Source: Olivibacter jilunii
GTDB taxonomy: Bacteria; Bacteroidota; Bacteroidia; Sphingobacteriales; Sphingobacteriaceae
Direction: 5' to 3'
NCBI RefSeq assembly: GCF_900607235.1
Contig: NZ_LR027848.1
Coordinates: 857,241-921,240 of the forward strand
DNA: 64,000 bases
Both the position numbers and the translations under genes were made by a program. Below the pieces are notes generated by a model. It saw only the letters and a program-made list of their open reading frames with translations. It did not search any database and was not told the origin of the DNA. This document shows, in pieces, positions 3,949-57,904 of the stretch (within the stretch, counting starts at the first letter, position 1; the number at the start of each line of letters is the position of its first letter).

Positions 3949-5091
3949 ATGAACAGATTTTATATAGGTTTATACGGTGTTGCTTTATCCGCTGCTATAG
4001 CATGCACATCAAGTAAAGGAAATAGTGATCAATCAGAAGAAAAGCGTTCGGTACCCTATACGCAACTAAAGGCCGTGGATACGATGTTATATACCGATTA
4101 CGTTGCTGATATACAAGCGGTGCGAAACGTAGAGGTACGTTCCAAAATACAAGGCTTTTTAGATAAGATATTTGTCGATGAAGGGGCCTTGGTGCAAGCG
4201 GGGCAGATTTTATTTAAGATTAACGACGATGAGCAACGTGCGGATGTGTCCAAAGCACAAGCTCTTTTAAACAATGCAACCGCAGATGCGAAGACAGTGG
4301 CACTCGAACTGGAACGTGTTAAGACGTTGGTGAAGAAAAATATTATCACGAAGACAGACCTTGATGTCGCTCAAGCGCAATTAAAGGCAGCTGAGGCGAG
4401 AGTTCAGGAAGCTCGATCTGATTTACAACGGGCGCAGACACAATTGGGCTATACCAGTATCCGAGCTCCGTTCACGGGAAGGATCGATCGCATTCCACTC
4501 AAAGTGGGAAGTTTATTGAGTGAAGGAGCCTTATTGACCAGCGTTTCTGATTTGGATGAGGTATATGCTTATTTTACGATATCGGAAACGGAGTATCTAC
4601 AGAATATAGCTAGGAAGTCACCGGAAAACAGTATATTATCTAAGGAAGTCAGACTTACATTAGCCGATGGACAGCACTATCCTCATATGGGAAAAATAGA
4701 GCTTGCCGAATCCGAGTTTGAAGAGCAAACGGGCACCATTTCACTTAGAGCTAGATTTCCCAACCCGGATAGGATATTAAAACATGGTGCCACCGGAAAA
4801 ATACAGTTGCCGACAAAAATCACCGAATCTATCATTGTTCCTCAAAAATCGGTCTTTGAGATCCAAGATCGCGCCTATGTCTATGTGCTGGATACAGCGA
4901 ATACAGTCAAAATGACAAATATTGAGCTAGGAACACGTTTTGGCCATTTTTATTTAATTCGCTCAGGACTTAAAGCCGGACAAAAAATTGTGTTCGAAGG
5001 TACGCAAAGCCTTACGGATGGTGTGGCTATCGAACCTCGTGAAGTTTCACTCGATAGCCTATTACACAGTCCGAGTCAAGGATTACAATAA
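3949..5091 (+). CDS. RND efflux pump periplasmic adaptor (AcrA/MexC-like lipoprotein)
   Basis: Membrane fusion protein of a tripartite RND efflux pump, linking the inner-membrane pump to the outer-membrane channel. The first 19 residues form a lipoprotein signal with lipobox AIAC (Cys19). Then come the first half of the lipoyl/barrel-sandwich domain (about 55-95, FVDEGALVQAGQILFKI), an alpha-helical hairpin rich in Ala/Gln/Lys (about 100-160), the second lipoyl half (YTSIRAPFTGRIDRI), a beta-barrel and the membrane-proximal domain. The 380-residue length is usual. The pump gene follows 28 nt downstream, so the two form an operon. No TetR/AraR-type repressor gene is adjacent. Confidence 0.93.
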   Translation: MNRFYIGLYGVALSAAIACTSSKGNSDQSEEKRSVPYTQLKAVDTMLYTDYVADIQAVRNVEVRSKIQGFLDKIFVDEGALVQAGQILFKINDDEQRADVSKAQALLNNATADAKTVALELERVKTLVKKNIITKTDLDVAQAQLKAAEARVQEARSDLQRAQTQLGYTSIRAPFTGRIDRIPLKVGSLLSEGALLTSVSDLDEVYAYFTISETEYLQNIARKSPENSILSKEVRLTLADGQHYPHMGKIELAESEFEEQTGTISLRARFPNPDRILKHGATGKIQLPTKITESIIVPQKSVFEIQDRAYVYVLDTANTVKMTNIELGTRFGHFYLIRSGLKAGQKIVFEGTQSLTDGVAIEPREVSLDSLLHSPSQGLQ

Positions 5092-5119: not shown

Positions 5120-8100
5120 ATGTTTGAAATTTTCATAAAACGACCGGTGCTATCACTGGTCATATCACTATTTATTACATTACTCGGGCTCCTATCGCTC
5201 TTTACGCTACCCGTTACGCAGTTCCCTGACATTGTGCCACCATCCGTCGTGGTAAATGCCAATTATACCGGAGCGAACGCGGAAGTAAGTACGAATGCCG
5301 TTGCTATCCCTTTAGAAAAAGCCATAAATGGCGTTCCTGGGATGACCTATATGTCTTCGGTTTCTACCAATAATGGTAATACTCTTATACAAGTGTATTT
5401 TGAGGTGGGAACAGATCCGGATATTGCTGCCGTAAACGTGCAAAATCGCGTAACCACCGTTTTAGACGAATTGCCGGAAGAAGTTATCAAAGCCGGGGTT
5501 ACCACCGAAAAGGAAGTAAACAGTATGTTGATGTATCTCAACATCTACAGCGATGACGAAACGGCGGATGAGCGATTTATATACAACTTTACGGATATCA
5601 ATATCTTAAAAGAATTGAAGCGTATCCAGGGAGTGGGGCGGGCCGAAATTATGGGCTTTAAAGATTATGCGATGCGGGTTTGGTTGAAGCCGGATCGACT
5701 CACTGCTTATCGCGTCTCAAGTGAAGATGTTATTAAAGCCATTCGGGCACAGAACGTGGAAGCAGCGCCCGGGCAAACCGGAATCGGGTCGGATAAGAGT
5801 GTTAACATGCAGCAGTATGTACTCCGCTACCCCGGTAAATTTGATCGCCCCGAACAGTACGAGAATATTCCACTACGCGCAAATCCGGACGGTTCGATTT
5901 TGCGTTTGAGAGATGTGGCAGATGTTGAATTTGGGTCTTTGGAATATGAGATGGCGTCCAAAGCTGATGGCCGTCCGTCAGCCTCTATCATGATTAAACA
6001 ATTGCCGGGTTCCAACGCCAGCGAAGTTATTGATGCCATTAAGGCTAAAATGGAGGAACTTAAGGGCACTACCTTTCCTCCGGGTATGAAGTACGCGATG
6101 GGTTACGATGTGTCGCGATTCTTAGACGCTTCTATCAATGAAGTACTGCATACGCTTGTGGAAGCCTTTATTTTGGTGTTTTTGGTCGTGTTTATTTTTC
6201 TACAGGATTTTCGATCCACTTTGGTGCCGGCACTGGCTGTTCCGGTCTGTTTGATCGGAGCCTTATTCTGTATGCAAATGCTCGGATTTTCGATCAACTT
6301 ATTAACCCTCTTTGCACTCGTGTTGGCGATTGGTATCGTGGTGGATAACGCCATTGTGGTGGTGGAGGCTGTGTATGTAAAAATGGAAGAAGAGCACATG
6401 CAACCCATGGAGGCGACGTTGGCGGCCATGAGGGAAATCAGCGGGGCAATTATTGCGATTACGTTGGTGATGTCTGCCGTATTTGTACCGGTGGCATTCC
6501 TCTCCGGCCCGGTAGGTGTTTTTTATCGACAGTTTTCTTTAACGCTGGCCGGATCTATTCTTATTTCAGGAATCAATGCGCTTACCTTAACACCGGCCCT
6601 TTGCGCTATCATTTTAAGATCGCCACACGATCGGCCTGAACCTAGAGGGGCCTTGGCAACCTTCTTTAGGAAATTTAATAGCGTCTATAACAGCATATCC
6701 GGAAGGTATGCCGGTCTTATCAGTCGTATCGCCGGTAGGCGCGTCATAACGCTGGTTATATTAGTAGTTTCATTCATAGCCACTTGGGGTATTTCCTCTG
6801 TTCTACCTTCCGGATTTATACCTACGGAAGATCAGGGAATGATTTACGTGAACGTTACGACGCCGCCAGGTGCAACCGTTCAGCGAACGGAGGCCGTATT
6901 GGATGAAGTAGATGCTATTGCTCGGCAAATGGAATCCGTCGAAAGTGTTTCGACGCTTGCCGGTTACAGTTTGGTAAATGAAGTTACCGGTGCTTCTTAT
7001 GGGATGGGGATGATTAACCTCAAACGTTGGGAAGAGCGGAAGGAATCGGTTAGTGATATGGTAGAGCGCATGAAGAAAGAAACTGCTAAGATAACCGATG
7101 CGGAGATCGAATTTTTCCCACCGCCAACCGTCCCCGGCTTCGGTAACTCAAGCGGTTTTGAGCTACGGGTGCTAGATCGAAGCGGCAGTGATGATCTGGG
7201 CAAGTTGTCTGATGTGTTGAACACTTTTATGGACAACCTGAAGAAAGCTCCCGAGGTGGGTAGTGCGTTTACCAGTTTTGATCCCAATTTCCCTCAATAT
7301 ATGATTAACGTCGATTATGATGTAGCGGCTAAAAAGGGGATAAGTGTGGAGAACGCGATGTCAACCTTACAAACACTGATGGGCAGCTTCTATACCTCCA
7401 ACTTTATCAAGTTTGGGCAAATGTATAAAGTAATGGTACAGGCAGGCCCGGGTTATCGGGAAAAGCCTGAAGATGTTTTGCGGTTGTTCCTTAAAAATGA
7501 AGCGGGAGAAATGGTGCCCTTTTCTAGTTTCATAAAAATGGAACGGATATACGGACCGGAGCAGCTAACCCGTTATAACATGTTTACCTCGGCCATGATC
7601 AATGGGGATGCAGCGCCCGGATATAGTAGCGGTGACGTAATTGCAGCGGTTGAACGCGTTGCTGCCGAAAGCTTACCGCGTGGATTTGAGATCGAATGGT
7701 CGGGTATGACACGCGAGCAGATCCTGTCCGGAAATCAAGCAATCTACGTGTTCGCTTTGTGTTTATTATTTGTTTATCTACTGTTATGTGCTCAATATGA
7801 AAGTTTCTTACTGCCCTTACCGGTTATTTTAAGTTTGCCGGCAGGGGTCTTCGGTGCTTTCCTATTTTTGAAGTTGCTTGGATTGGAGAACAATATCTAT
7901 GCACAAGTTGCCTTAATTATGTTGATCGGTTTGTTAGGTAAGAATGCGATACTTATTATTGAGTATGCGATTTTGAAGCATAAGCAGGGCGCATCAATCT
8001 TAAATGCGGCTATCGAGGGATCTGTTGCGCGCTTACGTCCTATTTTAATGACCTCATTTGCCTTCGTAGCAGGATTAATTCCGTTGGCGATGGCTTCCGG

Positions 8101-9694
8101 GGCAGGGGCTTTGGGAAATAGATCAATCGGTACAACGGCAATCGGAGGGATGATTATAGGTACATTGGCCGGTGTTATTGTCATTCCCGGGCTATATGTG
8201 CTATTTGCTTCCATGAAAAAACAGAAAAAGGCTAAGAAAGTAAGTGGTATTGCAGTAGCTGTACTGGGTATTTTATTGCTTTCATCCTGTGGAGTGCAGA
8301 AGGAAACGGAGTTAACCCATCGAAAAGTTCCGGCACACTACCTCGGAAAAAATCAGACCGATACGCTCGCTAATGATAGCACCTCCATGGCAACCATCTC
8401 TTGGAGAACTTTTTTTCAAGATGAGTATTTGCTAAGGCTCATCGATACGGCTTTAGCCAATAATCCGGACATGCAGCAAGCTCTCTATCGCGTTGAAATG
8501 GCACGTGCCAATATGCGTTTGCGTAAAAATGCCTTATTCCCTTCCATCGATGCGGTTGCGGAGGCGGGACTTCGCAAATATGGATTTTATACCATGGACG
8601 GAATCGGTAACTACGACACCAATTTCTCTAATAATTTGAAAGATGACGAACGAGTGCCAGACCCCGTGCCGGACTATTTTCTAGGTTTACGTGCCTCTTG
8701 GGAAATCGATATATGGGGCAAGCTGAAGAACCGAAAGAAAGCTGCTTTTGCTCGTTTCCTAGCATCTTATGAAGGGAGAAAATTAGTACAAACGCAGCTA
8801 ATAGCAGAAATCGCCGCTGCTTACTTCGAACTGTTGGCCTTGGATAATGAATTGGATATCCTCGAGAAGAATATTGCCTTACAACAAGAATCGTACGAGT
8901 TGGTGCAGGTGCAAAAAGAAGGTGGCCGGGCAACAGAATTAGGTGTGCAGCAGATGAGAGCCATTTTGATGAACTCAAAGAGTAGAAAAGAGACCGTTTT
9001 GCAACAGATAAATTCGAAGGAAAATTATTTGAATTTCTTATGCGGGCGCTTTTCTTCACCAATTGAGCGCAAGCGGGAGGAGTTAGATGCTTATCCTTTA
9101 GCAAGTGCTGTTCGGGTGGGACTTCCGGCAAAAATGTTAGCCTTGCGTCCGGACATACGGGCGGCAGAATTGAATTTACTAGCTGCGAAAGGAGATGTTA
9201 AAGCCGCCCGTGCAGCGTTTTTACCGTCGCTCAACTTTTCTCCTTATTTCGGATTTCAGGCATTTGATTTGTCTAAGCTATTTGTTACCTCGCCAAGTTC
9301 AATTGCGTATGGGTTGCTTGGAGGGTTAACGGCACCTATATTTAATCAACGCATGATTCGCTCTAATTATGAACAGGAATTAGCAAATAAAGGTATCGAA
9401 TATCAGGAGTATGAGAAAACAGTGCTAAAGGCTTGGCAAGAAGTTGAAACAGAACTCAATGCGCAGAGACATCTGATAGCAAGGCGATCCTTTAACCAAC
9501 ATGAAGTAGATGCTCTCCGTTTGGCCGTTGACGCTTCTTCTGAATTGTTTAAAGCAGGGAGAGCAAACTATTTGGATGTTATTACCTCACAACGAAATGT
9601 ACTGGATGCAGAAATCACTTTGAATAGTACCTATTTGGAATACCTCCAGTCAATTGTTAATTTATACAAAGCTTTAGGGGGTGGGTGGCAATAG
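5120..9694 (+). CDS. RND efflux pump fused in frame to its outer-membrane channel lipoprotein
   Basis: One uninterrupted frame of 1524 codons encodes two proteins normally made separately. Residues 1 to about 1030 are a complete HAE1-type RND proton/drug antiporter (MFEIFIKRPV start, two six-helix membrane halves, two large periplasmic loops). The TM4 proton-relay pair, Asp-Asp in AcrB, reads D409-N410; the TM10 lysine is present (K941). From M1032 (ATG at 8213) there is a typical lipoprotein signal: MKKQKKAKK, a hydrophobic core, and lipobox LSSC with Cys1057 (8288-8290). The next 468 residues are a TolC/OprM/NodT-type outer-membrane factor. In the pump topology this segment would cross the inner membrane from the cytoplasm, so signal peptidase II could release the channel from a polyprotein. 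Translation from the internal ATG is an alternative, but I see no strong ribosome site. The frame is open back to 4988, inside the adaptor gene, but ATG 5120 is the pump start. Confidence 0.93.
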   Translation: MFEIFIKRPVLSLVISLFITLLGLLSLFTLPVTQFPDIVPPSVVVNANYTGANAEVSTNAVAIPLEKAINGVPGMTYMSSVSTNNGNTLIQVYFEVGTDPDIAAVNVQNRVTTVLDELPEEVIKAGVTTEKEVNSMLMYLNIYSDDETADERFIYNFTDINILKELKRIQGVGRAEIMGFKDYAMRVWLKPDRLTAYRVSSEDVIKAIRAQNVEAAPGQTGIGSDKSVNMQQYVLRYPGKFDRPEQYENIPLRANPDGSILRLRDVADVEFGSLEYEMASKADGRPSASIMIKQLPGSNASEVIDAIKAKMEELKGTTFPPGMKYAMGYDVSRFLDASINEVLHTLVEAFILVFLVVFIFLQDFRSTLVPALAVPVCLIGALFCMQMLGFSINLLTLFALVLAIGIVVDNAIVVVEAVYVKMEEEHMQPMEATLAAMREISGAIIAITLVMSAVFVPVAFLSGPVGVFYRQFSLTLAGSILISGINALTLTPALCAIILRSPHDRPEPRGALATFFRKFNSVYNSISGRYAGLISRIAGRRVITLVILVVSFIATWGISSVLPSGFIPTEDQGMIYVNVTTPPGATVQRTEAVLDEVDAIARQMESVESVSTLAGYSLVNEVTGASYGMGMINLKRWEERKESVSDMVERMKKETAKITDAEIEFFPPPTVPGFGNSSGFELRVLDRSGSDDLGKLSDVLNTFMDNLKKAPEVGSAFTSFDPNFPQYMINVDYDVAAKKGISVENAMSTLQTLMGSFYTSNFIKFGQMYKVMVQAGPGYREKPEDVLRLFLKNEAGEMVPFSSFIKMERIYGPEQLTRYNMFTSAMINGDAAPGYSSGDVIAAVERVAAESLPRGFEIEWSGMTREQILSGNQAIYVFALCLLFVYLLLCAQYESFLLPLPVILSLPAGVFGAFLFLKLLGLENNIYAQVALIMLIGLLGKNAILIIEYAILKHKQGASILNAAIEGSVARLRPILMTSFAFVAGLIPLAMASGAGALGNRSIGTTAIGGMIIGTLAGVIVIPGLYVLFASMKKQKKAKKVSGIAVAVLGILLLSSCGVQKETELTHRKVPAHYLGKNQTDTLANDSTSMATISWRTFFQDEYLLRLIDTALANNPDMQQALYRVEMARANMRLRKNALFPSIDAVAEAGLRKYGFYTMDGIGNYDTNFSNNLKDDERVPDPVPDYFLGLRASWEIDIWGKLKNRKKAAFARFLASYEGRKLVQTQLIAEIAAAYFELLALDNELDILEKNIALQQESYELVQVQKEGGRATELGVQQMRAILMNSKSRKETVLQQINSKENYLNFLCGRFSSPIERKREELDAYPLASAVRVGLPAKMLALRPDIRAAELNLLAAKGDVKAARAAFLPSLNFSPYFGFQAFDLSKLFVTSPSSIAYGLLGGLTAPIFNQRMIRSNYEQELANKGIEYQEYEKTVLKAWQEVETELNAQRHLIARRSFNQHEVDALRLAVDASSELFKAGRANYLDVITSQRNVLDAEITLNSTYLEYLQSIVNLYKALGGGWQ

Positions 9695-31595: not shown

Positions 31596-34500
31596 ATGAA
31601 ACAGAAACTACTCAGTTTCTTTCTTGTTAGCTTGGCTTTATTAGGAAGCCTTTATGCGCAAGAAAGAACGATTCGAGGAAAGGTCACTGCAAAGGACAGT
31701 GGCGAACCGCTGCCGGGCGTGTCCGTGATGGCGGTCGGTACATCATCAGGCTCAACAACTAATGAAGAGGGAATTTACTCCATTTCGGTTCCCGCAAATG
31801 CGAAAGCATTAATCTTCTCCTACATTGGTTTTGAGAAAGAAACGGTATCTATTGGTAACCAAACAGTGATAGACGTTGAATTATCACAGGATGCCCAGGC
31901 ATTAAGTGAGGTCGTAGTGACAGCGCTAGGTATTGAACGTAAAAGAAACGAGCTGGGTTATGCCGCTCAGGAAGTGAGAAGCGAAGATATTACCCGCACA
32001 AGAGACAATAACTTCACAAATGCGCTTTCCGGAAAGGTGGCAGGTTTGGATATTAAGCAATCCGGTACAATGGGGGGCTCAACAAACGTAGTCATGCGGG
32101 GGTATAAGTCATTAACCGGGAATAATCAGGCTTTATTCGTTATTGATGGAGTTCCTGTCAGTAACGTCAACACCAATACTGATTTGCAAGAAGATGCCGA
32201 TGCCCAGAATCAAGGACGTGGAGGCTACGACTACGGTAACGCCGCTGCTGACATCAATCCCGATGATATTGAGTCCATCAACGTGTTGAAGGGAGCGGCT
32301 GCTTCCGCATTATATGGATCTCGCGCATCCAATGGGGTGATTATGATTACCACCAAAAAGGGAAAGAAAAATAGTACCAATATTACGATCAATAGTGGTC
32401 TAACTATTGGTAAAATAGATAAAAGCACCTTTGCCAAGTATCAGAAAGAGTACGGAGCGGGATATGTTAACCAGTATAGCGAAGAAGGCTATGCCTCTCC
32501 CGATGGAAATTTCTGGTATGAAACCGTATTCGGTAATTCCGGACCGGCTTTGGTAGTACCCTTTACAGAAGATGCCTCTTATGGTGCAGCTTTCGATCCA
32601 AATTTGTTGGTATATCAATGGGATGCCTTTGATGAAACCTCGCCAAACTATGGCAAGGCAACTCCTTGGGTAGGTGCGCAAAATGATCCATCTAAATTCT
32701 ATAAAACCGGTTTAAACTCCATGCAAAGCATCAGTATTGATGGAGGTGGTGATGTAACTACATATAAAGTAGGTTATACCCGAAACGATGAGACCGGTGT
32801 TTTGCCTAACAGTAAGATTACCAAGAACATGTTTAATCTTTCCGGATCCCATCAAATTAATGATAAATTAACGGTTAGTGCTACTGCCAATTTTTCTAGA
32901 GTAGATGCAATTGGCCGATATGGAACGGGTTATGATGGAAGAAATCCGAATCAGGGTTTCCGTCAGTGGTGGCAGACGAATGTCGATATTAGAGAATTGG
33001 AAAGAGCTTACGAGCGAGAGGGAAGAAATGTTACCTGGAATTGGTCGGATATCGACGCAACTGGACCTATTTACTCCAACAATCCTTACTGGGAGCGTTA
33101 CAAAAACTACCAGAACGACAGTCGTAACCGTTATTTCGGAAGTGCCGTCGTAAACTGGAAGCCTCTGGAATGGATGGATGTAATGGGCCGTGTTACTTTT
33201 GATGGATCGAATGAGTTCCAGGAAGAACGCCTGGCAATCGGTGGTGCAGAAGTGCCGGAATACCAACGTTACGATCGTACCTATAGTGAGGCCAATTACG
33301 ATTTGATGCTTAATTTCCATAAAGATCTGGCAGAAGATTTGACATTTACGGGTTTATTGGGAAGTAACTTGAGAAGAAATTATTTATCGGCTATTCGGGC
33401 ACAAACGAATGGGGGCTTAGCTTATGAGGGCATTTATTCCCTTTCCAACTCCATTTTCCCGATAGAACCGCCCAAAGAACGGTATGAAAGAATCGGAGTA
33501 GACGGTATTTTTGCCAATGCCAACTTCGGTTACAAAGAAACTTATTTTATAGAAGGGTCTATCCGTCGCGATCAGTCAACTACACTTCCAACGGATAACA
33601 ATGTGTATTGGTACCCCTCTGTTGCCGGTAGTTTCTTGTTTTCAAATTTATTAAAGGATTCCAACTGGCTAGATTACGGTAAATTACGGGTTAATTATGC
33701 GGAGGTTGGAAACGACGCATCGGCTTTAAGTTTGTATAATACCTACACCATTAATACACCTTTTAATGGAATTCCTATGGCTTCTATTGCTGAGGAGCTA
33801 CGTAATTCAAATCTGAAACCGGAACGTACCAAAAGTTTTGAGGTAGGTTTGGAGATGAATTTCTGGGATTCAAGAGTCGGCTTTGATGCCAGTTATTATC
33901 GCTCAACCTCCTTTGACCAGATTATGGCCGTAACCGTTTCCTCAGCCACCGGATATGATCGGCGTTGGGTGAATGCGGGTTCTTTACGAAACCAAGGTTT
34001 CGAACTGAGTGCTTTTGTAATCCCGGTGCGGACCAACGATTTTTCTTGGACTCTGAATCTGAATTTCGCACGTAACCGCAATAAGATGATCGAGTTGTAC
34101 GAAGGGAATAACAATTTACAGCTTGGTACCTTCCAAGGTGGTATAACCTTAAATGCCACTTTAGATCAACCCTTTGGTACTTTAAGAGGGGTTGATTATC
34201 TATATCTTGATGGACATCATGGTGACCCCGACTATCGCATAGTTGGCGAAGATGGTTACTATCTTACTTCCAGTCCGGATCAAGTGCTAGGCAATATTAA
34301 TCCCGACTGGTTGGGCGGTATTCAAAACAACTTTAAGTATAAGGATTTTTCATTGTCCTTCTTAATCGATATTAAAAAAGGCGGTAGTTTATTCTCATTG
34401 GATCAATATTACGGAATGTCGACCGGGATCTATCCCGAAACGGCTGGATTGAACGATTTAGGCAATCCAAAGCGTTTACCAATCAGTCAAGGAGGTGGCG

Positions 34501-34865
34501 TTGTGTTGCCAGGGGTTAATCCCGACGGCTCTCCCAACGCAACCCGCGTAGAAGCCTATGACAATTCTGTAACACCTTATGGTTATGCCAATAATCCGCA
34601 AGCGGGATTTATTTACGACGCGGGATATATTAAACTTAGAGAAGTTTCGCTTACCTATAGCTTACCTAATAGGTGGCTGGCCAATACCAATTTCTTCAAA
34701 GGGATTGACTTTTCTTTAGTGGGCAGAAACCTTTGGTTAATTCATAGTAATGTACCTTATGCAGATCCCGAAGGGGGCTTAAGCTCCGGTAACTTACAGG
34801 GTATTCAAAGTGGGGTGTACCCTGCTGTTCGGAATTTTGGATTTAATGTTCGAATGAGGTTCTAA
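31596..34865 (+). CDS. SusC/RagA-family TonB-dependent outer-membrane transporter (pair 1)
   Basis: A 1089-residue TonB-linked beta-barrel that imports a nutrient, usually an oligosaccharide or peptide, captured by its SusD partner. A signal peptide (1-21, ending LYA) is followed by a carboxypeptidase-regulatory-like domain (about 24-100), a TonB-box-like LSEVVVTALG, the plug (GYAAQEVRSEDI to GSRASNGVIMITTKKG) and a 22-strand barrel ending in a terminal phenylalanine (NVRMRF). It is most like the SusC of pair 2 (shared NPYWERYKNYQND segment). The first codons can fold as a hairpin (31603-31620). The SusD gene follows after 21 nt. The substrate is unknown, because no enzyme genes are nearby. 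Confidence 0.95.
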   Translation: MKQKLLSFFLVSLALLGSLYAQERTIRGKVTAKDSGEPLPGVSVMAVGTSSGSTTNEEGIYSISVPANAKALIFSYIGFEKETVSIGNQTVIDVELSQDAQALSEVVVTALGIERKRNELGYAAQEVRSEDITRTRDNNFTNALSGKVAGLDIKQSGTMGGSTNVVMRGYKSLTGNNQALFVIDGVPVSNVNTNTDLQEDADAQNQGRGGYDYGNAAADINPDDIESINVLKGAAASALYGSRASNGVIMITTKKGKKNSTNITINSGLTIGKIDKSTFAKYQKEYGAGYVNQYSEEGYASPDGNFWYETVFGNSGPALVVPFTEDASYGAAFDPNLLVYQWDAFDETSPNYGKATPWVGAQNDPSKFYKTGLNSMQSISIDGGGDVTTYKVGYTRNDETGVLPNSKITKNMFNLSGSHQINDKLTVSATANFSRVDAIGRYGTGYDGRNPNQGFRQWWQTNVDIRELERAYEREGRNVTWNWSDIDATGPIYSNNPYWERYKNYQNDSRNRYFGSAVVNWKPLEWMDVMGRVTFDGSNEFQEERLAIGGAEVPEYQRYDRTYSEANYDLMLNFHKDLAEDLTFTGLLGSNLRRNYLSAIRAQTNGGLAYEGIYSLSNSIFPIEPPKERYERIGVDGIFANANFGYKETYFIEGSIRRDQSTTLPTDNNVYWYPSVAGSFLFSNLLKDSNWLDYGKLRVNYAEVGNDASALSLYNTYTINTPFNGIPMASIAEELRNSNLKPERTKSFEVGLEMNFWDSRVGFDASYYRSTSFDQIMAVTVSSATGYDRRWVNAGSLRNQGFELSAFVIPVRTNDFSWTLNLNFARNRNKMIELYEGNNNLQLGTFQGGITLNATLDQPFGTLRGVDYLYLDGHHGDPDYRIVGEDGYYLTSSPDQVLGNINPDWLGGIQNNFKYKDFSLSFLIDIKKGGSLFSLDQYYGMSTGIYPETAGLNDLGNPKRLPISQGGGVVLPGVNPDGSPNATRVEAYDNSVTPYGYANNPQAGFIYDAGYIKLREVSLTYSLPNRWLANTNFFKGIDFSLVGRNLWLIHSNVPYADPEGGLSSGNLQGIQSGVYPAVRNFGFNVRMRF

Positions 34866-34886
34866 TAATATTAAGATCGTATACAG

Positions 34887-36314
34887 ATGAAAAGAATATT
34901 CTTATATATTGCGCCCCTAGTTTTGTTAGCTTCGTGCGCAAAAAACCTGGACGACTATAATGTCGATCAGAAAAATCCTGCAGAAGTTTCGCAGGCGCCA
35001 CTCTTCAGTAATGCACTGAAAGAACTTACGGATGATGTAACTTCTCCGAGCGTTAATATCAATGTGTTTCGGTTTTGGATTCAGCAATGGACTGCCACGA
35101 CATACCAAGACGAGCCTCGATATAACTTTGTTACCCGAAATATTCCTGAAAATTTTTGGGAGCCGCTTTATCAAGAAGTTTTACATGATCTAAAGCAAGC
35201 AAAGACTTATGCAACCGAGGATACGGAAATTGAAGACGTTCAACGGAATAATCAAATAGCTGCTATTGAAATTACTTCTGTTTATGCCTGGACGGTGCTC
35301 GTCAATACATGGGGAGATGTACCTTATACAGAGGCTCTTTCCGATATCGGCCAACCAAAATACGATGATGCAGCCACGATTTACGGCGATTTACTGAATA
35401 GATTGGATGCGGCGATAGCCATGATAGACCCGAGTGGAGAAGGTTTTGGCAGTGCAGATTTATTGTATGGTGGTGACATGGCCGCTTGGCTGAAGTTTGC
35501 GCATAGCTTAAAACTAAAAATGGCCATAACTCTTGCTGATGTAGACGAGCTCAGGGCACGTGAAATCATCACAGCTTCAGCAGCAGCTGCTTTTACGAGC
35601 AATGCAGACAATGCCGCCTTTGCCTATGTTTCGGCCTCGCCTAATAATAATCCGGTTTCCAATAATTTGAATTCTCAGTTTACTTCGCGGCAAGATTACG
35701 TAGCTGGAGGACCGTTTGTTAATGTATTGAATAGCTTGGAAGATCCAAGGCGCCCATTCTTCTTTACTACCGTTAATGGTGAATATGTTGGTGGAGGAAT
35801 TGGGTCCAGTAATCAATATTCAACGAACTCCAAGCCAAGTGATAAAGTAATTGCCCCTGATTTCGAAGCACTGCTACTCGATTATTCGGAAGTAGAGTTC
35901 ATTTTAGCGGAAGCTGCTGCCCGATGGGGCATCGGAGGCACACCAAGCGAGCATTATAACAAAGCGATTGAAGCATCTATCACCTATTGGGGTGGAGACG
36001 ACCGCGATGTAGCGAACTATTTAGCGCAGCCAGCGGTTGCTTATGCTAGCGCTTCGGGTGATTGGAAAGAAAAGATTGGCGTTCAAAAGTGGTTAGCTTT
36101 ATATAACCGAGGTTATGATGCCTGGGTAGAATGGAAAAGACTTGATCACCCTCAGCTGGAGCCTGCCTTCCGAGCGGTGGACCCGGGCATTATACCTAAC
36201 CGACTCACTTATCCGGTGAGCGAACGTACACTGAATGGTACCAACGTAGACGCTGCGGCCTCAAAATTAGGAGGAGATGATGTGGTTCATAAAGTTTTCT
36301 GGGATGTGAATTAA
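34887..36314 (+). CDS. SusD/RagB-family surface lipoprotein (pair 1)
   Basis: A 475-residue nutrient-binding outer-membrane lipoprotein that forms the lid of the SusC transporter. The lipoprotein signal ends in LLASC (Cys17). The sequence belongs to the SusD-like branch with the opening LDDYNVDQKNPAEVS and helical TPR-like repeats (VNTWGDVPYTEALS; LLYGGDMAAWLKFAHSLKLK), found also in pair 2. A terminator follows 27 nt after the stop. Confidence 0.93.
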   Translation: MKRIFLYIAPLVLLASCAKNLDDYNVDQKNPAEVSQAPLFSNALKELTDDVTSPSVNINVFRFWIQQWTATTYQDEPRYNFVTRNIPENFWEPLYQEVLHDLKQAKTYATEDTEIEDVQRNNQIAAIEITSVYAWTVLVNTWGDVPYTEALSDIGQPKYDDAATIYGDLLNRLDAAIAMIDPSGEGFGSADLLYGGDMAAWLKFAHSLKLKMAITLADVDELRAREIITASAAAAFTSNADNAAFAYVSASPNNNPVSNNLNSQFTSRQDYVAGGPFVNVLNSLEDPRRPFFFTTVNGEYVGGGIGSSNQYSTNSKPSDKVIAPDFEALLLDYSEVEFILAEAAARWGIGGTPSEHYNKAIEASITYWGGDDRDVANYLAQPAVAYASASGDWKEKIGVQKWLALYNRGYDAWVEWKRLDHPQLEPAFRAVDPGIIPNRLTYPVSERTLNGTNVDAAASKLGGDDVVHKVFWDVN

Positions 36315-36340
36315 GCGTCAATTAGCTATTATAAATTTGA

Positions 36341-36369
36341 AATGCCTTCCGCAAGGGAGGCATTTTTTG
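36341..36369 (+). terminator. Terminator after SusC/D pair 1
   Basis: Hairpin ATGCCTTCC-GCAA-GGGAGGCAT (one G-T wobble) followed directly by TTTTTTG. Confidence 0.82.
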
Positions 36370-36500
36370 TTATGACGTTTTCCGTCGAAGATTCAATAAA
36401 TCAAGCGATAAAGAGAAATTGCCAAAATGTTACAATTGAGACTTCTAATATTGTTCTAATGTATCTGAGCCACATTTTTTGTAACATTTTTTTATTTTTT

Positions 36501-36800
36501 TTGAAAATTTTAAAATAGAAGGAATATTTGCGGTTGAATTTAACATTTTTTAACATCTAGCTAATATTAAAGCTTGTTAGCTACAAGCGAATAGACGAAT
36601 CTTTTATGTACTTCCAAAGAACATAAGAAGGTTTACTGAGGATACAAAAAGAAGTACTTACGATAGAGGAAATGGATACCCAAGCGAGGGCATACGTACT
36701 TATTATTAAACCAGGTGAATAGATTCTATTCAGCCAATCTTTTCTCTTTTATTTAATTGCTTATAATACCCTATTTTATATTTTAACTAAAATCAAACAC
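36501..36800 (+). promoter_or_regulatory. Promoter and leader of SusC/D pair 2
   Basis: TTG (36501-36503, within a run of Ts as TTTG), 19 bp, AATATTTG (36523-36530; seven of eight matches to TAnnTTTG). The leader to ATG 36801 would be about 265 nt and holds no gene. Its last bases, TATTTTAACTAAAATCAAAC, closely resemble the ends of the leaders of pairs 3 and 4. Confidence 0.5.
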
Positions 36801-39800
36801 ATGAAACAAAAACTACTAAGTTTTTTTCTGGCGTCATTTCTGCTCTTGGGAGTGGCTTATGCGCAGGAGAGAACGATTAGAGGAAAGGTGACTTCTTCAG
36901 CAGGAGAAGCTTTACCTGCAGTGTCCGTGATTGTCACGGGTACAACTACCGGTACACAAACCAATGCAGAAGGTAATTTTAGCCTGAATGTACCCGACGG
37001 AGCAAGTTCCATCACCGTATCTTACATTGGATACACTAAACAAGTTATTAACCTAACGCAGTCGAATACTTATAATGTCGTCCTTTCGGAAGATGCTGCG
37101 CAGCTGAATGAGGTTGTTGTAACTGCATTAGGTATATCGCGCCAAAAAAAATCCCTTGGTTATTCCGTTCAAGAGATTAAAGGTGAAGATGTTTCCCAAA
37201 CAAAGCAAACAAACTTTGTGAACAACTTAAATGGTAAAGTAGCAGGGGTACAAGTTGTAGGAGGTAGTGGTAACATGGGTGGATCTGCTAAAATCAGCAT
37301 TCGTGGCATTAGTTCCATTACAGGAAATAACAATCCGCTTTTTGTGGTAGACGGTATTCCTATGGACAATTCGAACTTTGCTCCAATAAGCGCTACAACG
37401 GGTAAGCCAGGAACAAACCAAGCGCGCGGTGCCGGTGGTTATGATTATGGAAATACCATTCAAGACATCAATCCAGATGATATAGAAAGCTATTCCGTAT
37501 TAAAAGGAGCTGCAGCAACAGCACTATATGGTAGTAGGGCACTAAACGGGGTCATTTTAATTACCACAAAGAAAGGCTCTAAGAAGAAAGGCTTGGGTGT
37601 TTCTTACAATTTTAATGCACAGATGGATAAGGTCTATAAGTTGCCTGACTACCAAAATCAATATGGAGGAGGAGCTTGGGATGATGAACTTGGCGGACCA
37701 CAACCTTTTCAAAGACTATATACACCAAATGGAACTTATCAAGATGAAAATGGCGAACGTTACGATTTATTGGTAGATTATGCGAGAGACGAATCTTGGG
37801 GACCGAAATTCGATCCTAATCTGCTTGTAAGACACTATTGGTCGTTTGAAGGTGATGAGGCTGGTGTAAGTGCTCCTTGGGTGGCACACCCCAATAACGT
37901 ACGCGATTTTTTTGAAACAGGCATGACCTATACAAATAACGTCGCGTTGGACGGTGCTAATGATCAAGGAAGTTTTCGCGTTGCTTATACGAATTTGAGC
38001 CAGAACTTTATACTACCTAACTCTAAATTCGAAAAGAATAACATTTCCTTTAATGGTAATTACAATTTCTCTCCCCGCCTTCATGCGGATTTGAGTGCTA
38101 ATTACGCTGGAACAAAAGCAACCGGTCGTCCGGGAACCGGGTATGACGGCGCTAACGTTATGCAACAGTTCAACAACTTTGGACAGCGCAGCTGGGATAT
38201 TGAACATATGCGGAACTATGAAAATCCTGATGGTTCTCAACGTACATGGAACAGAAGAGCATACGACGATCCTGCAGCGAATTACACTGACAACCCGTAT
38301 TGGACACGTTATAAAAACTACCAGAATGATGGAAGGGATCGGTTCTATGGTGTTTTTGGCTTAACTTATGACATCACGGATGAATTGAAGGTAAGTGCCA
38401 AAGCGATGACTGATTTTTATACCGATATACGTCAAGAGCGGATCGCCTTTGGATCCAATGCCGTGCCATTTTACTCCCACTACGAACGTTTCAATAAAGA
38501 AGAGAACTTCGAAGCCAGAATTAGCTACAATAAGACATTTAACGATTTCAGTGTAAATGCGATGGCGGGTGTTAACAGAAGGGAAAATCAGTATCGTATC
38601 AATGGTGGACAAACAGTAGGCGGATTAAACGTAAAAGACTTTTTCAATTTGCGTAACTCTACATCTCCAGCCTTACTCATTGAACAATTGTTTCAAAACC
38701 GGATGAATTCGGTGTTCGCCAGTGCCTCATTCGGTTATAAAGATTTTATTTACTTAGATCTTACCGGAAGAAACGACTGGTCTTCAACTTTGCCTGCTAA
38801 TAATAATTCATTCTTTTATCCGGCAGCATCTGCCTCATTCGTTTTCTCAGAATTGGGATCAATGCGTGACTCCGGTTGGTTAAACTTTGGAAAGTTGCGT
38901 TTCGGAGCAGCTAAAGTAGGTAACGATACGGACCCTTATCGTCTGCTGAATATCTTTGAACCGGATCAAAGTATTGGCGACAATCCAAGCTATACGCGTC
39001 CATTGCAACTCAATAATCCAAACCTGAAGCCTGAAACGGCGGTTGAATACGAGGCCGGTTTAGAGATGCGCATGTTTGACAACCGTTTTGGATTTGACTT
39101 TTCAGCCTACCATAAAACGGCAAAAGACCAAATTATTCCGTTGGCGATTTCACCGACTTCCGGATATTCCAGCAGAATTATTAATGCCGGAAAAATGCAA
39201 AATAAAGGTCTAGAATTGGCTATTTACGGTACTCCAATTAAGACAAGCGGTGGTTTCACTTGGGATGCAACTTTCAACATTGCAAGAAACGTTAATAAAC
39301 TTATAGAGCTGTATACCGATCCGGTAACTGGTGAAAGAGTGACCAATCTAACAATAGGAACAGCACCTTTTATTGCTACCATTAATGCTGAAGAAGGCGA
39401 ATCCTACGGAAGTATCATGGGAACTAATTTCGTGTACGACGAAAACGGCGATAAGGTTGTATTACCAAATGGATTGTATAAAGTAAGTAATGGTGTAGAA
39501 AAAATTGGAAGCATTTTGCCAGATTTTACCGGAGGCTTTATGAATACATTTAGCTACAAAGCCTTTTCTTTAGGCGTAAACTTTGATTTTCAATCAGGTG
39601 GAGATGTTTTCTCAATTACGAACCTGTTCGGTAAATCATCGGGTCTTTTTGAAGAGACCGCTGCAAATGGTATCAGAGAAAATGGAATTATCGTACCTGG
39701 CGTTAAAGAAGACGGTACCCCTAATGATGTTTCAATTGATGCATATACGCACTTTAATGCAAATGGTGGACAAAGAATTGCTGCTGAGAATGTATATGAC

Positions 39801-40046
39801 GCGAGTTATATTTATCTAAGAGAGGTAAACCTTGGCTACAACTTGCCTAAATCTTTTGTAGAGAAATTGAGATTGCAAAGTGTTCGAGTTGCCTTGACAG
39901 GTCGGAATTTATGGCTTATGAAGTCGAATATTCCACATGTTGATCCATCGGCAATTGCTTTATCAACAGGCAATCTTCAAGGTATTGAAGGGGTATCGAT
40001 GCCTTCTACAAGAACCTTTGGCTTTAATCTAAACGTAACTTTTTAA
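36801..40046 (+). CDS. SusC/RagA-family TonB-dependent outer-membrane transporter (pair 2)
   Basis: A 1081-residue SusC-like transporter: signal peptide (1-21, ending AYA), carboxypeptidase-regulatory-like domain (about 24-98), TonB-box-like LNEVVVTALGI, plug with GKVAGVQVVGGSGNMGG and YGSRALNGVILITTKKG, then the barrel with C-terminal FNLNVTF. It is the nearest relative of the pair 1 SusC in this window, probably by duplication, though the barrel loops differ, so the ligands may differ. The hairpin at its start (36808-36825) is perfectly paired. The SusD gene begins 11 nt after the stop. Confidence 0.95.
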   Translation: MKQKLLSFFLASFLLLGVAYAQERTIRGKVTSSAGEALPAVSVIVTGTTTGTQTNAEGNFSLNVPDGASSITVSYIGYTKQVINLTQSNTYNVVLSEDAAQLNEVVVTALGISRQKKSLGYSVQEIKGEDVSQTKQTNFVNNLNGKVAGVQVVGGSGNMGGSAKISIRGISSITGNNNPLFVVDGIPMDNSNFAPISATTGKPGTNQARGAGGYDYGNTIQDINPDDIESYSVLKGAAATALYGSRALNGVILITTKKGSKKKGLGVSYNFNAQMDKVYKLPDYQNQYGGGAWDDELGGPQPFQRLYTPNGTYQDENGERYDLLVDYARDESWGPKFDPNLLVRHYWSFEGDEAGVSAPWVAHPNNVRDFFETGMTYTNNVALDGANDQGSFRVAYTNLSQNFILPNSKFEKNNISFNGNYNFSPRLHADLSANYAGTKATGRPGTGYDGANVMQQFNNFGQRSWDIEHMRNYENPDGSQRTWNRRAYDDPAANYTDNPYWTRYKNYQNDGRDRFYGVFGLTYDITDELKVSAKAMTDFYTDIRQERIAFGSNAVPFYSHYERFNKEENFEARISYNKTFNDFSVNAMAGVNRRENQYRINGGQTVGGLNVKDFFNLRNSTSPALLIEQLFQNRMNSVFASASFGYKDFIYLDLTGRNDWSSTLPANNNSFFYPAASASFVFSELGSMRDSGWLNFGKLRFGAAKVGNDTDPYRLLNIFEPDQSIGDNPSYTRPLQLNNPNLKPETAVEYEAGLEMRMFDNRFGFDFSAYHKTAKDQIIPLAISPTSGYSSRIINAGKMQNKGLELAIYGTPIKTSGGFTWDATFNIARNVNKLIELYTDPVTGERVTNLTIGTAPFIATINAEEGESYGSIMGTNFVYDENGDKVVLPNGLYKVSNGVEKIGSILPDFTGGFMNTFSYKAFSLGVNFDFQSGGDVFSITNLFGKSSGLFEETAANGIRENGIIVPGVKEDGTPNDVSIDAYTHFNANGGQRIAAENVYDASYIYLREVNLGYNLPKSFVEKLRLQSVRVALTGRNLWLMKSNIPHVDPSAIALSTGNLQGIEGVSMPSTRTFGFNLNVTF

Positions 40047-40056
40047 TTGACAGCAA

Positions 40057-41523
40057 ATGAAACGATATAATTATAAAATTGGCTTTCTAGCTATTTTAGG
40101 CCTAATAGGACTGGGGTCTTGTACGAAGAGCTTTGAGGAGCTTAATTATGACCCAAACAACGCACATGAGGTCAACCCTGAATATTTGTTATCCTATGCA
40201 CAGAAAAACGCGATGGATAATACTTGGGATGAATGGCAGAATGGACGTTTTGGTTTACTCTACTCGCAACAGTGGTCGCAACCGGATTATACAGAAGAAA
40301 GTAGATATCAAATTAGAACCAATGTTAACTATAATCTTTGGTTGGCATATTACCATGATGTACTTAATAATTTAGAGGAAAGTGTTAAGCAAAACGAGGC
40401 AGATTTAATTAGCGGGTCGCCGAATAAATCAGCTATCTCTAAGATATTAAAAAGCTGGGCGTTTCATGTTTTGACAGATATCTATGGAGATATTCCTTAT
40501 AGCGAAGCCCTTCAAGGAGAGGCTGCGCTTAACCCTAAATATGAATCATCGCAGGTCATATACGCTGATTTGTTAAAAACCTTGCAAGAGCAGGTGAGTA
40601 TATTGGACGAAAGTCAGCCAAGCTATGGCTCTGGCGATAATATCTACGGAGGTGATGTTCTAAAATGGAAAAAGTTCGCGAACTCGCTTATCGTAAGAAT
40701 CGCCTTGCGTATGGTAGACAAAGACACACAGGCTGCGAGAAGTGCGATTGAAGCCGCGGTGAGCTCGGGCGTTTTTCAAGGTAATGAAGATAATGCACTC
40801 TATCACTATTTAGCAAACGCTCCGAATAACAATCCAATCAACGAAAGTTACAAATCAAGAACGGGCGATTTTTCAGTTTCGAAGACGTTGGTTGACTACA
40901 TGAAGGAAGTTAATGATCCAAGATTGCCTGTTTATGCAAGTCCTGCAGCCGTAAGCGGTGAATATATTGGTTATGTATATGGATCTTCCACTGTCATTAA
41001 CGCTAATCAAGTTTCCTTGCCTGGTACACGTATTAGAGCAGCAGAAGAACCTGGAATTTTTATGAGCTATCCTGAAGTAGCTTTTGCTTTAGCTGAAGCA
41101 GCAGAAAGAGGTTTTAGTGTAGGGGGAACTGCCGAAGACTTTTATAAAAAAGGGATTACTGCCTCTATGAACTATTGGGGTGTTACGGATGCCAACGCTA
41201 TTAACCAATATATAGCAGGAAGCCCATATAACAGCAGCGACTGGAAGAATGTGATAGGAGTACAAAAGTGGTTAGCTATGTATATGCAGGGAATTCAAGC
41301 ATGGTTAGAAAGAATACGTCTTGATATCAAAAAACCTGGTGGGGCCCAATTATTTGTTGCTCCAGTTAGCGGAAGCCTTGATCAAAACGTTGATTTTGTG
41401 CCGTACAGAATGACTTATCCGGTTGAAGAGCAAACAAGAAATGCGGTCAATTATAGAGAAGCCGTTTCAAAGATCCCTGGAGGCGTTGATTCTAAAGGCG
41501 CTAAACAGTGGTGGATGCCGTAG
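40057..41523 (+). CDS. SusD/RagB-family surface lipoprotein (pair 2)
   Basis: A 488-residue SusD-like lipoprotein with lipobox GLGSC (Cys22). It matches the pair 1 SusD in plan and in segments such as LTDIYGDIPYSEALQ, NIYGGDVLKWKKFANSLIVR and IGVQKWLAMY. It should bind the ligand for the SusC of this pair at the cell surface. A long terminator hairpin follows. Confidence 0.93.
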   Translation: MKRYNYKIGFLAILGLIGLGSCTKSFEELNYDPNNAHEVNPEYLLSYAQKNAMDNTWDEWQNGRFGLLYSQQWSQPDYTEESRYQIRTNVNYNLWLAYYHDVLNNLEESVKQNEADLISGSPNKSAISKILKSWAFHVLTDIYGDIPYSEALQGEAALNPKYESSQVIYADLLKTLQEQVSILDESQPSYGSGDNIYGGDVLKWKKFANSLIVRIALRMVDKDTQAARSAIEAAVSSGVFQGNEDNALYHYLANAPNNNPINESYKSRTGDFSVSKTLVDYMKEVNDPRLPVYASPAAVSGEYIGYVYGSSTVINANQVSLPGTRIRAAEEPGIFMSYPEVAFALAEAAERGFSVGGTAEDFYKKGITASMNYWGVTDANAINQYIAGSPYNSSDWKNVIGVQKWLAMYMQGIQAWLERIRLDIKKPGGAQLFVAPVSGSLDQNVDFVPYRMTYPVEEQTRNAVNYREAVSKIPGGVDSKGAKQWWMP

Positions 41524-49754: not shown

Positions 49755-52751
49755 ATGAAACAAAAACTACTAAGTTTTTTCTTACTGTTTACTCTCTTAA
49801 TAGGAGCAGTATACGCGCAGGAAAGGAGGGTCAGCGGAAAAGTGTCTGACGAAAACGGACAGCCCCTACCAGGAGTATCAGTGGTAGTGAGCGGTTCAAC
49901 TATTGGAACCCAGACCAGCAATGATGGAATGTTTTCTTTATCCGTTCCAGCAGGAGCTGTAAGCTTAACTTTCAGTTATATTGGTTACAAAACCTTAGTA
50001 CAAAGTTTAAGCGCTGGAAACAATTTAGATGTAACGCTAGGTATTAACGCTTCTGAGTTATCGGAAGTTGTGGTTGTTGGTTATGGACAGCAGAGTCGAG
50101 CTTTAAGTACTCAAACAGTAGCGTCTGTAAGTTCGGAGTCTTTTAAAAATGTACCTATTCAGACTCCCCAGCAAATTCTACAAGGGCAAGCTGCTGGCGT
50201 TAATATGGTGAACTCATCGGGTGTTTTAGGTGCTGAAGCGCAAATTACCATTCGAGGTGGTTCCTCTCTAAGTGCGGGTGGACGTCCGTTGTATGTAATT
50301 GACGGTGTACCTCTAAATTCTGCTGGAGCGCAGTATACTCAAGCGCAAGGAGGTGCCTCAGCCCTTAACCCATTGATTAACATCAATCCCAATGATATTG
50401 AAAGTATGACGGTATTAAAGGACGCCTCTGCAGTTGCAATCTATGGATCAAGGGGTTCTAACGGGGTCATACTTATTACTACCAAAAAGGGAACTGGGCA
50501 AGGTAAAACAAAGATAAATGCGGATTACTTTACAGGGTTCTCCAAGCCAACTTCCTTAGAACCAATGATGAACGCTGATCAGTGGCGTCAATTTCGAACC
50601 GATTATTTGACAGCGAATAATGCCTCTGTTCCGCAATTCCCAACGACAAGTTACGATTGGATAGATAATGTTGTTAGAACGGGTCATGTGAATACCGCGA
50701 ACCTCAGCGCTACTGGAGGAAGTGAAAAGACAACGTTTTTTGTTGGAGGAACGTATTCTACTGAAAGTGGTTATACGATAGGAAACCAAATGGATCGTTT
50801 ATCTGGACGCATTAATTTAAATCATAAGGTCTCTGATAAAGTGAATTTTGGTGTAAATTATAATCTTTCTCACGTTGATATGGATAGAATTGGGGCAGAG
50901 AACAATACTTATGCACCACTTACATCGGCTTATTTGCAATTGCCTTATATTACACCATATGGTCCTGACGGAAAGTTTCAAAACACGGGCTTTATTGCTA
51001 ATGTAATTGCTATTGAACAGACTGGTATAAATAAAAATTGGTCGGATAGAAGTACTGGTAACGCTTACGCAGAATTGGAAGTTATTGAAGGTTTGAAACT
51101 GAAGACCGATTGGGGAATTGATAACTATAAAATTGACGAAAAATATAGAGAGTCAGATTTGCTAACACCTGGTGGTTATGGATATCGTACTAATTATACC
51201 GATAATAAATGGTTGACTACCAATACGCTGAATTATAACAAAACTTTTGATGGCAGACACAACATCGGCGCATTGCTAGGTTACAGTTTTGAAAAGGCTA
51301 CATTGACGCAAATATTTGTGGAAGGAACAGGTTATGCTAGCGATGGGTTGCCTAATGTTGGATCAGCATCAAATCCAGTTTCCGCATCTGAAGAGATTTT
51401 TGACTGGGCGCTTGAATCTCAGTTTGCGCGTGTAAACTATAGTTTCGATGATAAGTACTTGTTTGAAGGATCTTTTCGTCGTGATGGTTCCTCGCGGTTT
51501 GGACCGAATAAAAAATATGGAAACTTCTATGCTCTATCAGGCGGTTGGGTCATTTCCAATGAAGGTTTTTTCAATAAGGATAATAATATTGCTCAATTCC
51601 TGAAATTGACCACTAGTTATGGAACAGCTGGGAATGATAATATAGGTTATTATGATTATCTAGGCACTTTCTTAGCGGGAACCGATGCCAATAGTCAGAT
51701 TGTTAATTATAATGGTGAGTCTGGGTTAGTTCCAAGCAGGGTTGCAAATCCCAATTTAAGCTGGGAAGAAACGGCTCAGTTCGATGTGGGACTAAGCGGT
51801 CGATTCTTCAACGCGATCGATATTCAAATGAATTTTTATAATAAGACATCGCGGGATCTATTGCTTAATGTACCATTACCTTTTACAACAGGATTCGCTA
51901 GTGCGTCGCAGAATGTAGGTAAACTAAGAAATAGAGGTTTTGAATTTACAATCAACTCTGAAAATATCAATCGCGATCATTTTACTTGGAGAACCTCTTT
52001 TAATATAGCGTTCAACAAGAACACGGTTTTGGAGCTACCTGAAAATAGAGACGAAGACGGAAGAAACTTTTTGGGAACAGGCGAGCAAAGAGCAATTGTA
52101 GGACATTCTAAAAATACGTTTTATTTGATACGATATAACGGAATCAACCCGGAAACCGGGGATGCGGAGTGGTTAACAAAAGATGGTACACCTACTACAT
52201 CACCAACGGCTGCTGATCGGGTGATAGTTGGCAAAGCAGACCCAACGTTTCAAGGTGGTATCACTAATACCTTTACATTCAAAGGTTTTGATTTAACTGC
52301 ATTTTTTAACTTTACTCAAGGCAATGATGTTTATATCGATGGCTTAGAATTTACTGATAATTTCGGATCAGGTTCCTACAATAAAAGCGTGAAGCTTTTA
52401 GACTACTGGAGACAACCTGGCGATCAAGCCTTTGCACCTGCATTGAATAGTGATACAAGAACAACCTATCATCAGCCGTCCACGAAGCAAATGATGGATG
52501 GTTCTTATTTGAGACTAAAGACGTTAACCCTAGGATATAACTTGCCAAGCAGTTTTTTGGCAAAAACAAAAATATTCTCGAGTGCGAGAATATATTTCCT
52601 CGGTCAGAATTTGTGGACTGTTAAAAGTAAGGATTTTAGAGGTGATCCTGAAATTTCAGCTAATGGAGCTAGTAATTTAACAATAGGTCAAAGTTTCTTT
52701 GCACTACCACAGGCAAAATCATACACATTCGGAGTTAATCTTACACTTTAA
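49755..52751 (+). CDS. SusC/RagA-family TonB-dependent outer-membrane transporter (pair 3)
   Basis: A 998-residue SusC-like transporter, the shortest of the four. Signal peptide (1-21, ending VYA), carboxypeptidase-regulatory-like domain (about 24-98), LSEVVVVGYGQQ, plug (GQAAGVNMVNSSG; YGSRGSNGVILITTKKG) and barrel with the FEGSFRRDGSSRFG strand and C-terminal TFGVNLTL. It belongs to the common VVVGYG branch, unlike pairs 1 and 2. The start hairpin (49762-49779) is perfectly paired. The SusD gene follows after 11 nt. Confidence 0.95.
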   Translation: MKQKLLSFFLLFTLLIGAVYAQERRVSGKVSDENGQPLPGVSVVVSGSTIGTQTSNDGMFSLSVPAGAVSLTFSYIGYKTLVQSLSAGNNLDVTLGINASELSEVVVVGYGQQSRALSTQTVASVSSESFKNVPIQTPQQILQGQAAGVNMVNSSGVLGAEAQITIRGGSSLSAGGRPLYVIDGVPLNSAGAQYTQAQGGASALNPLININPNDIESMTVLKDASAVAIYGSRGSNGVILITTKKGTGQGKTKINADYFTGFSKPTSLEPMMNADQWRQFRTDYLTANNASVPQFPTTSYDWIDNVVRTGHVNTANLSATGGSEKTTFFVGGTYSTESGYTIGNQMDRLSGRINLNHKVSDKVNFGVNYNLSHVDMDRIGAENNTYAPLTSAYLQLPYITPYGPDGKFQNTGFIANVIAIEQTGINKNWSDRSTGNAYAELEVIEGLKLKTDWGIDNYKIDEKYRESDLLTPGGYGYRTNYTDNKWLTTNTLNYNKTFDGRHNIGALLGYSFEKATLTQIFVEGTGYASDGLPNVGSASNPVSASEEIFDWALESQFARVNYSFDDKYLFEGSFRRDGSSRFGPNKKYGNFYALSGGWVISNEGFFNKDNNIAQFLKLTTSYGTAGNDNIGYYDYLGTFLAGTDANSQIVNYNGESGLVPSRVANPNLSWEETAQFDVGLSGRFFNAIDIQMNFYNKTSRDLLLNVPLPFTTGFASASQNVGKLRNRGFEFTINSENINRDHFTWRTSFNIAFNKNTVLELPENRDEDGRNFLGTGEQRAIVGHSKNTFYLIRYNGINPETGDAEWLTKDGTPTTSPTAADRVIVGKADPTFQGGITNTFTFKGFDLTAFFNFTQGNDVYIDGLEFTDNFGSGSYNKSVKLLDYWRQPGDQAFAPALNSDTRTTYHQPSTKQMMDGSYLRLKTLTLGYNLPSSFLAKTKIFSSARIYFLGQNLWTVKSKDFRGDPEISANGASNLTIGQSFFALPQAKSYTFGVNLTL

Positions 52752-52762
52752 AATATAAGAAC

Positions 52763-54172: not shown

Positions 54173-54181
54173 ATTTAGGAA

Positions 54182-54215
54182 GCGACTGCAGGGGCATCTC
54201 TGTCATTGCAGTCGC
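54182..54215 (+). terminator. Hairpin after SusC/D pair 3
   Basis: GCGACTGCA (54182-54190) pairs perfectly with TGCAGTCGC (54207-54215) around a 16-nt loop, 9 nt after the stop. T-run weak, so a moderate call. Confidence 0.6.
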
Positions 54216-54340
54216 CCTATATTTAAATTATTACTTACCTACCTTTGGAATACATGACATATGTATTACCTCTAGCTTAACGCTTCTGCGATTAGGCATG
54301 TATCAGAAATAATCGATACTCTGAAAGAAGTAAATTCTAA

Positions 54341-54716
54341 AAAAACTTGTAAAATATTTTCAAAAGCTTAGTTTTGCTAATAAATTGTTAAATTAGTTTA
54401 ATAACAGCCCTAATGTTTAGCGTATTGAGATAGATTTACATTAACCTTTTTAGGATTTTAGTATGAAGAACGGAATGTTCATCATGATTGACCTAATCCT
54501 ATAGCCATATTTCTCTCTCATTTTGCCGGTAAAGGGTTCTATTATACTAAATAGTGCCTAATCTGTTCTTCCGCAGTCTTGTATATGTTGGCGAGTGAAT
54601 GGATTTGCTTTAATCATCAAATCTGATGAATAAAATATTTACTGATTTCTATATGGATTTAAGTACTATCATTTTATATTTTTAATCAATTTAATTTTTA
54701 ACCAAAAAGCAAACAC
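54341..54716 (+). promoter_or_regulatory. Promoter and conserved leader of SusC/D pair 4
   Basis: TTG (54347-54349), 19 bp, TAGTTTTG (54369-54376), an exact consensus promoter at almost the same distance from the susC start (about 340 nt) as in pair 3. Blocks shared with the pair 3 leader are listed there. No gene is seen in 54216-54716. Confidence 0.65.
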
Positions 54717-57887: not shown

Positions 57888-57904
57888 TTATTAAAAAGAA
57901 AGAC

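Follow-up and report, generated by a model that had tools for sequence, protein, structure and literature searches.

A conserved lipoprotein signal inside a fused RND pump-channel protein of Olivibacter and other Bacteroidota, and its predicted processing as a polyprotein

How does an outer-membrane channel reach its destination when it is encoded in the same open frame as an RND pump? This question is raised by a gene of the soil bacterium Olivibacter (Sphingobacteriaceae; nearest named record O. domesticus, 90% identical), which we analyzed within a stretch of 64,000 nucleotides, hereafter the window. The sequence-only reading of this DNA had described an unbroken frame running from a pump into a complete TolC/OprM-like channel. 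This was borne out, as no stop codon was found across the 1524 residues encoded at 5120-9694 (+), and both halves are complete because PF00873 covers residues 1-1029 and TIGR01845 covers residues 1050-1522. The genes and parts of the locus are as follows.

3949..5091, + strand: periplasmic adaptor (membrane fusion protein, RND_mfp; TIGR01730, E 5.5e-80)
5120..9694, + strand: fused gene for an HAE1 RND pump and an OprM/NodT outer-membrane channel (one open frame, 1524 aa)
5120..8206, + strand: pump part, residues 1-1029, AcrB/MexB/CmeB-like and full length (PF00873 positions 1-1020 of 1021)
8288..9691, + strand: predicted mature channel, residues 1057-1524, OprM-like (by OprM match and structure model)

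The pump part matched PF00873 with an E of 0 and scored 1071 bits against TIGR00915 (subfamily 2A0602; cut-off 940), and its matches include MexB, AcrB, and CmeB chains, typical ones at E 1e-217 or lower. Against the HME profile of CusA/CzcA-type pumps (TIGR00914), it reached 384 bits, below the cut-off of 701. The fused gene's pump is accordingly a predicted HAE1 (AcrB/MexB-like) drug pump; RND permeases of this class use protons to drive hydrophobic or amphiphilic drugs out of the cell. The channel part matched the NodT/OprM family TIGR01845 with an E of 1.9e-80 over profile positions 3-460 of 460 (271 bits; cut-off 210). The adaptor gene, whose product has a lipoprotein-like N-terminus (MNRFYIGLYGVALSAAIAC), ends 28 bases before the fused gene on the same strand, and the order of the unit is therefore adaptor, then pump plus channel. 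Elsewhere in the window, the stretches 31596-41523 and 49755-59401 hold several genes for SusC-like TonB-dependent receptors with partner genes after them, and a SusD-like protein was confirmed at 34887-36314. A gene for a lantibiotic dehydratase (LanB-like, with N and C domains) lies at 61576-63939 (-), which suggests that a cluster for a peptide natural product reaches into the window at this edge. No matches were obtained when the whole window was scanned for Rfam families and tRNAs.

The segment that joins the two halves was examined for export signals, and its features are listed below.

8213..8287, + strand: internal type II signal peptide, residues 1032-1056, with a K-rich n-region, a hydrophobic core, and a c-region (from the sequence and its homologues)
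8213..8215, + strand: Met1032 (ATG), which could serve as an internal start but is not conserved
8279..8290, + strand: lipobox LSSC, residues 1054-1057, with the Cys1057 codon TGT at 8288-8290

Residues 1032-1057 read MKKQKKAKKVSGIAVAVLGILLLSSC (MKKQKKAKK...LLLSSC), exactly as in the earlier description of a full type II signal peptide at this place, with the Cys encoded at 8288-8290. The junction matches the pattern of such a signal: an n-region with K/R, a core, and a lipobox ending in Gly, Ala, or Ser followed by Cys. It departs from it in location, being internal and preceded by 1031 pump residues rather than N-terminal. The segment thus appears to work like a type II signal in a non-standard place.

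We sought to establish how widely this arrangement is shared. The fusion was present in all five Olivibacter genomes and was also encountered in Sphingobacterium, Parapedobacter, Chitinophaga, and other Bacteroidota. A full-length match to the main fusion without a stop was found in 44 of the 201 sampled genomes of the family, and a 45th genome (G439) was confirmed on DNA; a second, unrelated fusion group (~44% identity) was found in five genomes. Because the open-frame lengths from the genome search read through one stop codon, the fusions were re-read from DNA, upon which many apparent fusions proved to be two genes. These included HAE1 candidates of 1530-1560 aa elsewhere and the paralogues L003, L004, and L131. 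Across all fetched loci, 68 distinct HAE1 fusions were read in this way. The set of 80 loci ranked by full-length match is biased to fused or same-frame loci, and no frequencies were drawn from it.

The number of origins was estimated by parsimony on a rooted tree of 175 pumps labeled for the fused state. Six gains were counted, namely a Sphingobacteriaceae clade that contains the window's gene (50 members), a Chitinophaga clade, L094/L052/L109, L075/L089, L219-L223, and L129, although some of them could be losses and L129 sits on a long branch. The locus L095, which carries a frameshift inside an otherwise fused frame, accounts for one further change on the tree. A smaller IQ-TREE analysis again gave six changes, and a single clade of fusions, and with it a single origin, was rejected (p-AU 0.00015). 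The lipobox was kept in every origin, and by this reconstruction the fusion arose repeatedly, about six times and always with the lipobox. It was also noted that two methane-oxidising Pseudomonadota, Methylomonas (L086) and Methylobacter (L090), carry ~55% identical pump-channel pairs as two genes; L086 nests among Bacteroidota in the tree, which suggests horizontal transfer.

The sequence-only reading had asked whether the Cys and the hydrophobic core are kept in homologues, and both are. All 68 distinct HAE1 fusions possess the K/R patch and the core at the junction, and with a loose lipobox pattern the Cys was counted in 68/68, as was Gly, Ala, or Ser at position -1; position -3 is mostly Leu, Ile, Phe, or Val. 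Within the 50-member clade, whose members are non-independent observations, tree parsimony assigned no change to the Cys1057 column, against 6-29 changes per column for the 39 positions around it (-24 to +15). The codon of this Cys took three silent TGT/TGC steps, and the nine changes at position -1 were confined to Ser, Ala, and Gly. Since only two columns of the whole protein, residues 495 and 1057, are Cys in 68/68, the conservation of Cys1057 is far from chance; nor does the invariance stem from an alignment anchored on the Cys, because no sequence lacked it. This pattern indicates that selection maintains the junction as a lipoprotein signal. In one locus, L224 (G439:C1:341000-346900), ~30 additional residues, acidic and rich in glycine, separate the pump from the signal, and both the signal and the lipobox are kept.

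The channel itself was compared with solved structures, among which OprM was the closest (E 6e-49). A structure model of residues 1032-1524 (mean pLDDT 85.9) superposed on OprM with a Z of 37.3 and an rmsd of 2.9 over 434 residues, and by profile and model the channel has a predicted OprM fold. With phmmer, mature residue 32 pairs with OprM residue 33. The alignment of the model with 3d5k begins at model residue 30, which corresponds to OprM residue 5; as Cys1057 is model residue 26, it therefore takes the place of residue 1 in mature OprM, a palmitoylated Cys whose palmitate acts as an anchor (PMC4486845). Cys1057 thus lies as far from the first helix as the N-terminal Cys of mature, cut OprM does. 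Both features of an N-terminal lipoprotein, the signal and the Cys, are present and invariant in the channel, and its lipidation is predicted from them.

Pump-channel fusions are known as domain architectures, including among the HME pumps. The sequence-only reading had mentioned heavy-metal RND-TolC fusions as known in Bacteroidota; to this we add that they, too, keep an internal signal, which is of type I. The same genome possesses five CusA/CzcA-type pumps fused to TolC-like channels (L111-L115), and together with L177-L205 we read 33 HME RND-TolC fusions from across Bacteroidota. In all 33, the junction consists of basic residues, a core, and then a small residue (A/S/G/T) before Gln. This signal peptidase I-like site satisfied a strict pattern in 29 cases, and the other four read FKA|Q, MQA|Q, MYS|Q, and ALT|Q. 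Apparently, HME fusions throughout the phylum carry such a type I-like signal internally. With a lipobox in the HAE1 fusions and a type I-like site in the HME fusions, each fusion thus keeps the native signal of its channel, and the class of channel decides which class of signal stays at the junction. In the same genome, two further CusA-like RND pumps, L231 (G000:C7:224000-228300) and L232 (G000:C12:70800-75000, minus strand), are each encoded as two ORFs that adjoin or overlap (426+644 and 432+668 aa), and in both the split follows the motif VDNGIIMSENAYKH. As the split occurs twice in the genome, it looks like a real split transporter and not an error.

The principal alternative to cutting is that the junction forms an uncut thirteenth transmembrane helix, so that pump and channel would never separate and the inner membrane would hold the channel as a tether. 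Any tether would likewise need the K-rich loop and a hydrophobic helix, and the core alone is no proof of cutting because every model with a periplasmic channel needs a hydrophobic segment at the junction. The fused cores are also slightly longer and more hydrophobic than those of channels encoded by separate genes (uncharged run 16 vs 14; KD 2.57 vs 2.14), which could hint at an anchor function and may equally reflect the demand for insertion from an internal position. However, an uncut helix gives no reason for an invariant Cys preceded by nothing other than Ser, Gly, or Ala in 68/68 fusions of six origins, nor for the small residue that precedes Gln at the HME junctions. That each fusion keeps the kind of signal usual for its channel family is the best general argument for use of the sites, because an uncut tether could do without either motif. 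The position of Cys1057 speaks in the same direction, since OprM residue 1 is palmitate-anchored on the outer-membrane side (PMC4486845) and an inner-membrane tether starting from that position would presumably have to span the periplasm. We consider the uncut helix unlikely.

A second possibility is that translation starts anew near Met1032 and yields the channel as an ordinary lipoprotein, with read-on chains being minor or degraded. Met1032 does open a textbook signal peptide (MKKQKKAKK...) in the window, and gene starts in Bacteroidota often do without a Shine-Dalgarno sequence. This explanation is weakened because Met1032 is absent from L011 and L012 of the same genus, and because 52/68 fusions have no in-frame ATG between the pump end and the core; 36/68 have no ATG, GTG, or TTG there. 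Moreover, a stop codon was never regained in the 50-member clade. Judged from these comparisons, internal initiation is not the conserved route, and we regard it as highly improbable for the gene in the window. That an assembly or sequencing error hides a stop codon, the outcome that a stop near 8210 on resequencing would have revealed, is a common kind of artefact (and L095 does show a frameshift within an otherwise fused frame), but it is already refuted by the homologues, with the same open junction in five Olivibacter genomes and in 68 distinct sequences read on DNA from many assemblies, and its probability is negligible.

We return to the processed polyprotein, which is very probably the correct reading: the protein would enter the membrane during translation, receive its lipid at Cys1057, and be cleaved by LspA, which would set free an OprM-like lipoprotein. 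That an internal signal and signal peptidase II processing free the channel had been proposed earlier, and the conservation of the Cys, the core, and the K/R patch over six origins supports it; the cut itself we infer from this conservation. Pumps of this family have twelve helices and a cytoplasmic C-terminus. The pump part would insert during translation with this topology, after which the K-rich loop (~1030-1040) and the hydrophobic core (1041-1056) would act as an internal N-in signal, and the channel part would cross the inner membrane via Sec. Cys1057 would then be lipidated by Lgt, and LspA would cut between Ser1056 and Cys1057. Two loci for each enzyme were found over the Pfam cut-off in the same genome, at G000:C6:269650-270408 and G000:C2:1252861-1253952 for Lgt and at G000:C12:118574-119125 and G000:C5:62192-62617 for LspA. 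The pump would retain a tail of ~27 residues that is a former signal peptide, and the freed channel, by then an OprM-like lipoprotein of the usual kind, would travel to the outer membrane and pair with the adaptor encoded just upstream. The arrangement suggests joint synthesis of pump and channel, in equal amounts, before they are separated.

We compared this system with those already known. MexAB-OprM, AdeIJK, and CmeABC are HAE1 systems with a lipidated channel that share the adaptor, pump, and channel families and the gene order of the Olivibacter unit, and their channels are likewise of the OprM/NodT type with an N-terminal Cys. In these systems, however, pump and channel have separate genes with their own starts, whereas in Olivibacter one frame carries the lipoprotein signal inside. 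The HME RND-TolC fusions of Bacteroidota share the pump followed by an in-frame channel with a signal peptide at the junction, but they belong to other subfamilies and possess a type I signal (a small residue before Gln) in place of the lipobox. The nearest precedent to our knowledge is FbcH, the cytochrome b/c1 polyprotein of Bradyrhizobium, in which an internal signal joins a polytopic protein to an exported one and is cleaved once the chain has been made. FbcH concerns a respiratory complex and signal peptidase I, whereas the Olivibacter gene concerns drug efflux and a site predicted for signal peptidase II. In OpuA-type ABC permeases, a substrate-binding domain, normally a lipidated exported partner, is fused C-terminally and forms a lasting tether; in the Olivibacter fusion, by contrast, a cut site is conserved.

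The lipobox retained at an HAE1 junction had been called undescribed. A search of the open-access literature agreed, finding no natural RND-channel fusions, internal lipobox in polytopic proteins, or RND polyprotein processing (and nothing relevant on FbcH), and such absence is weak as evidence. Polyproteins are seldom considered as a way of making bacterial proteins, and we know of searches for lipoprotein signals at N-termini only. A conserved internal lipobox would mean that lipoproteome predictions miss such channels. The synthesis of pump and channel would be locked at one to one, and globomycin or other inhibitors of LspA could block a drug pump as well. The gene may further offer a simple system for asking whether a site within a polytopic protein can be a substrate for Lgt and LspA. 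On a broader scale, it is likely that Bacteroidota as a whole build RND systems through polyproteins processed by signal peptidases, in which signal peptidase II would act on the HAE1-OprM fusions and signal peptidase I on the HME-TolC fusions, leaving the former signal peptide as a tail on the pump and fixing synthesis at 1:1.
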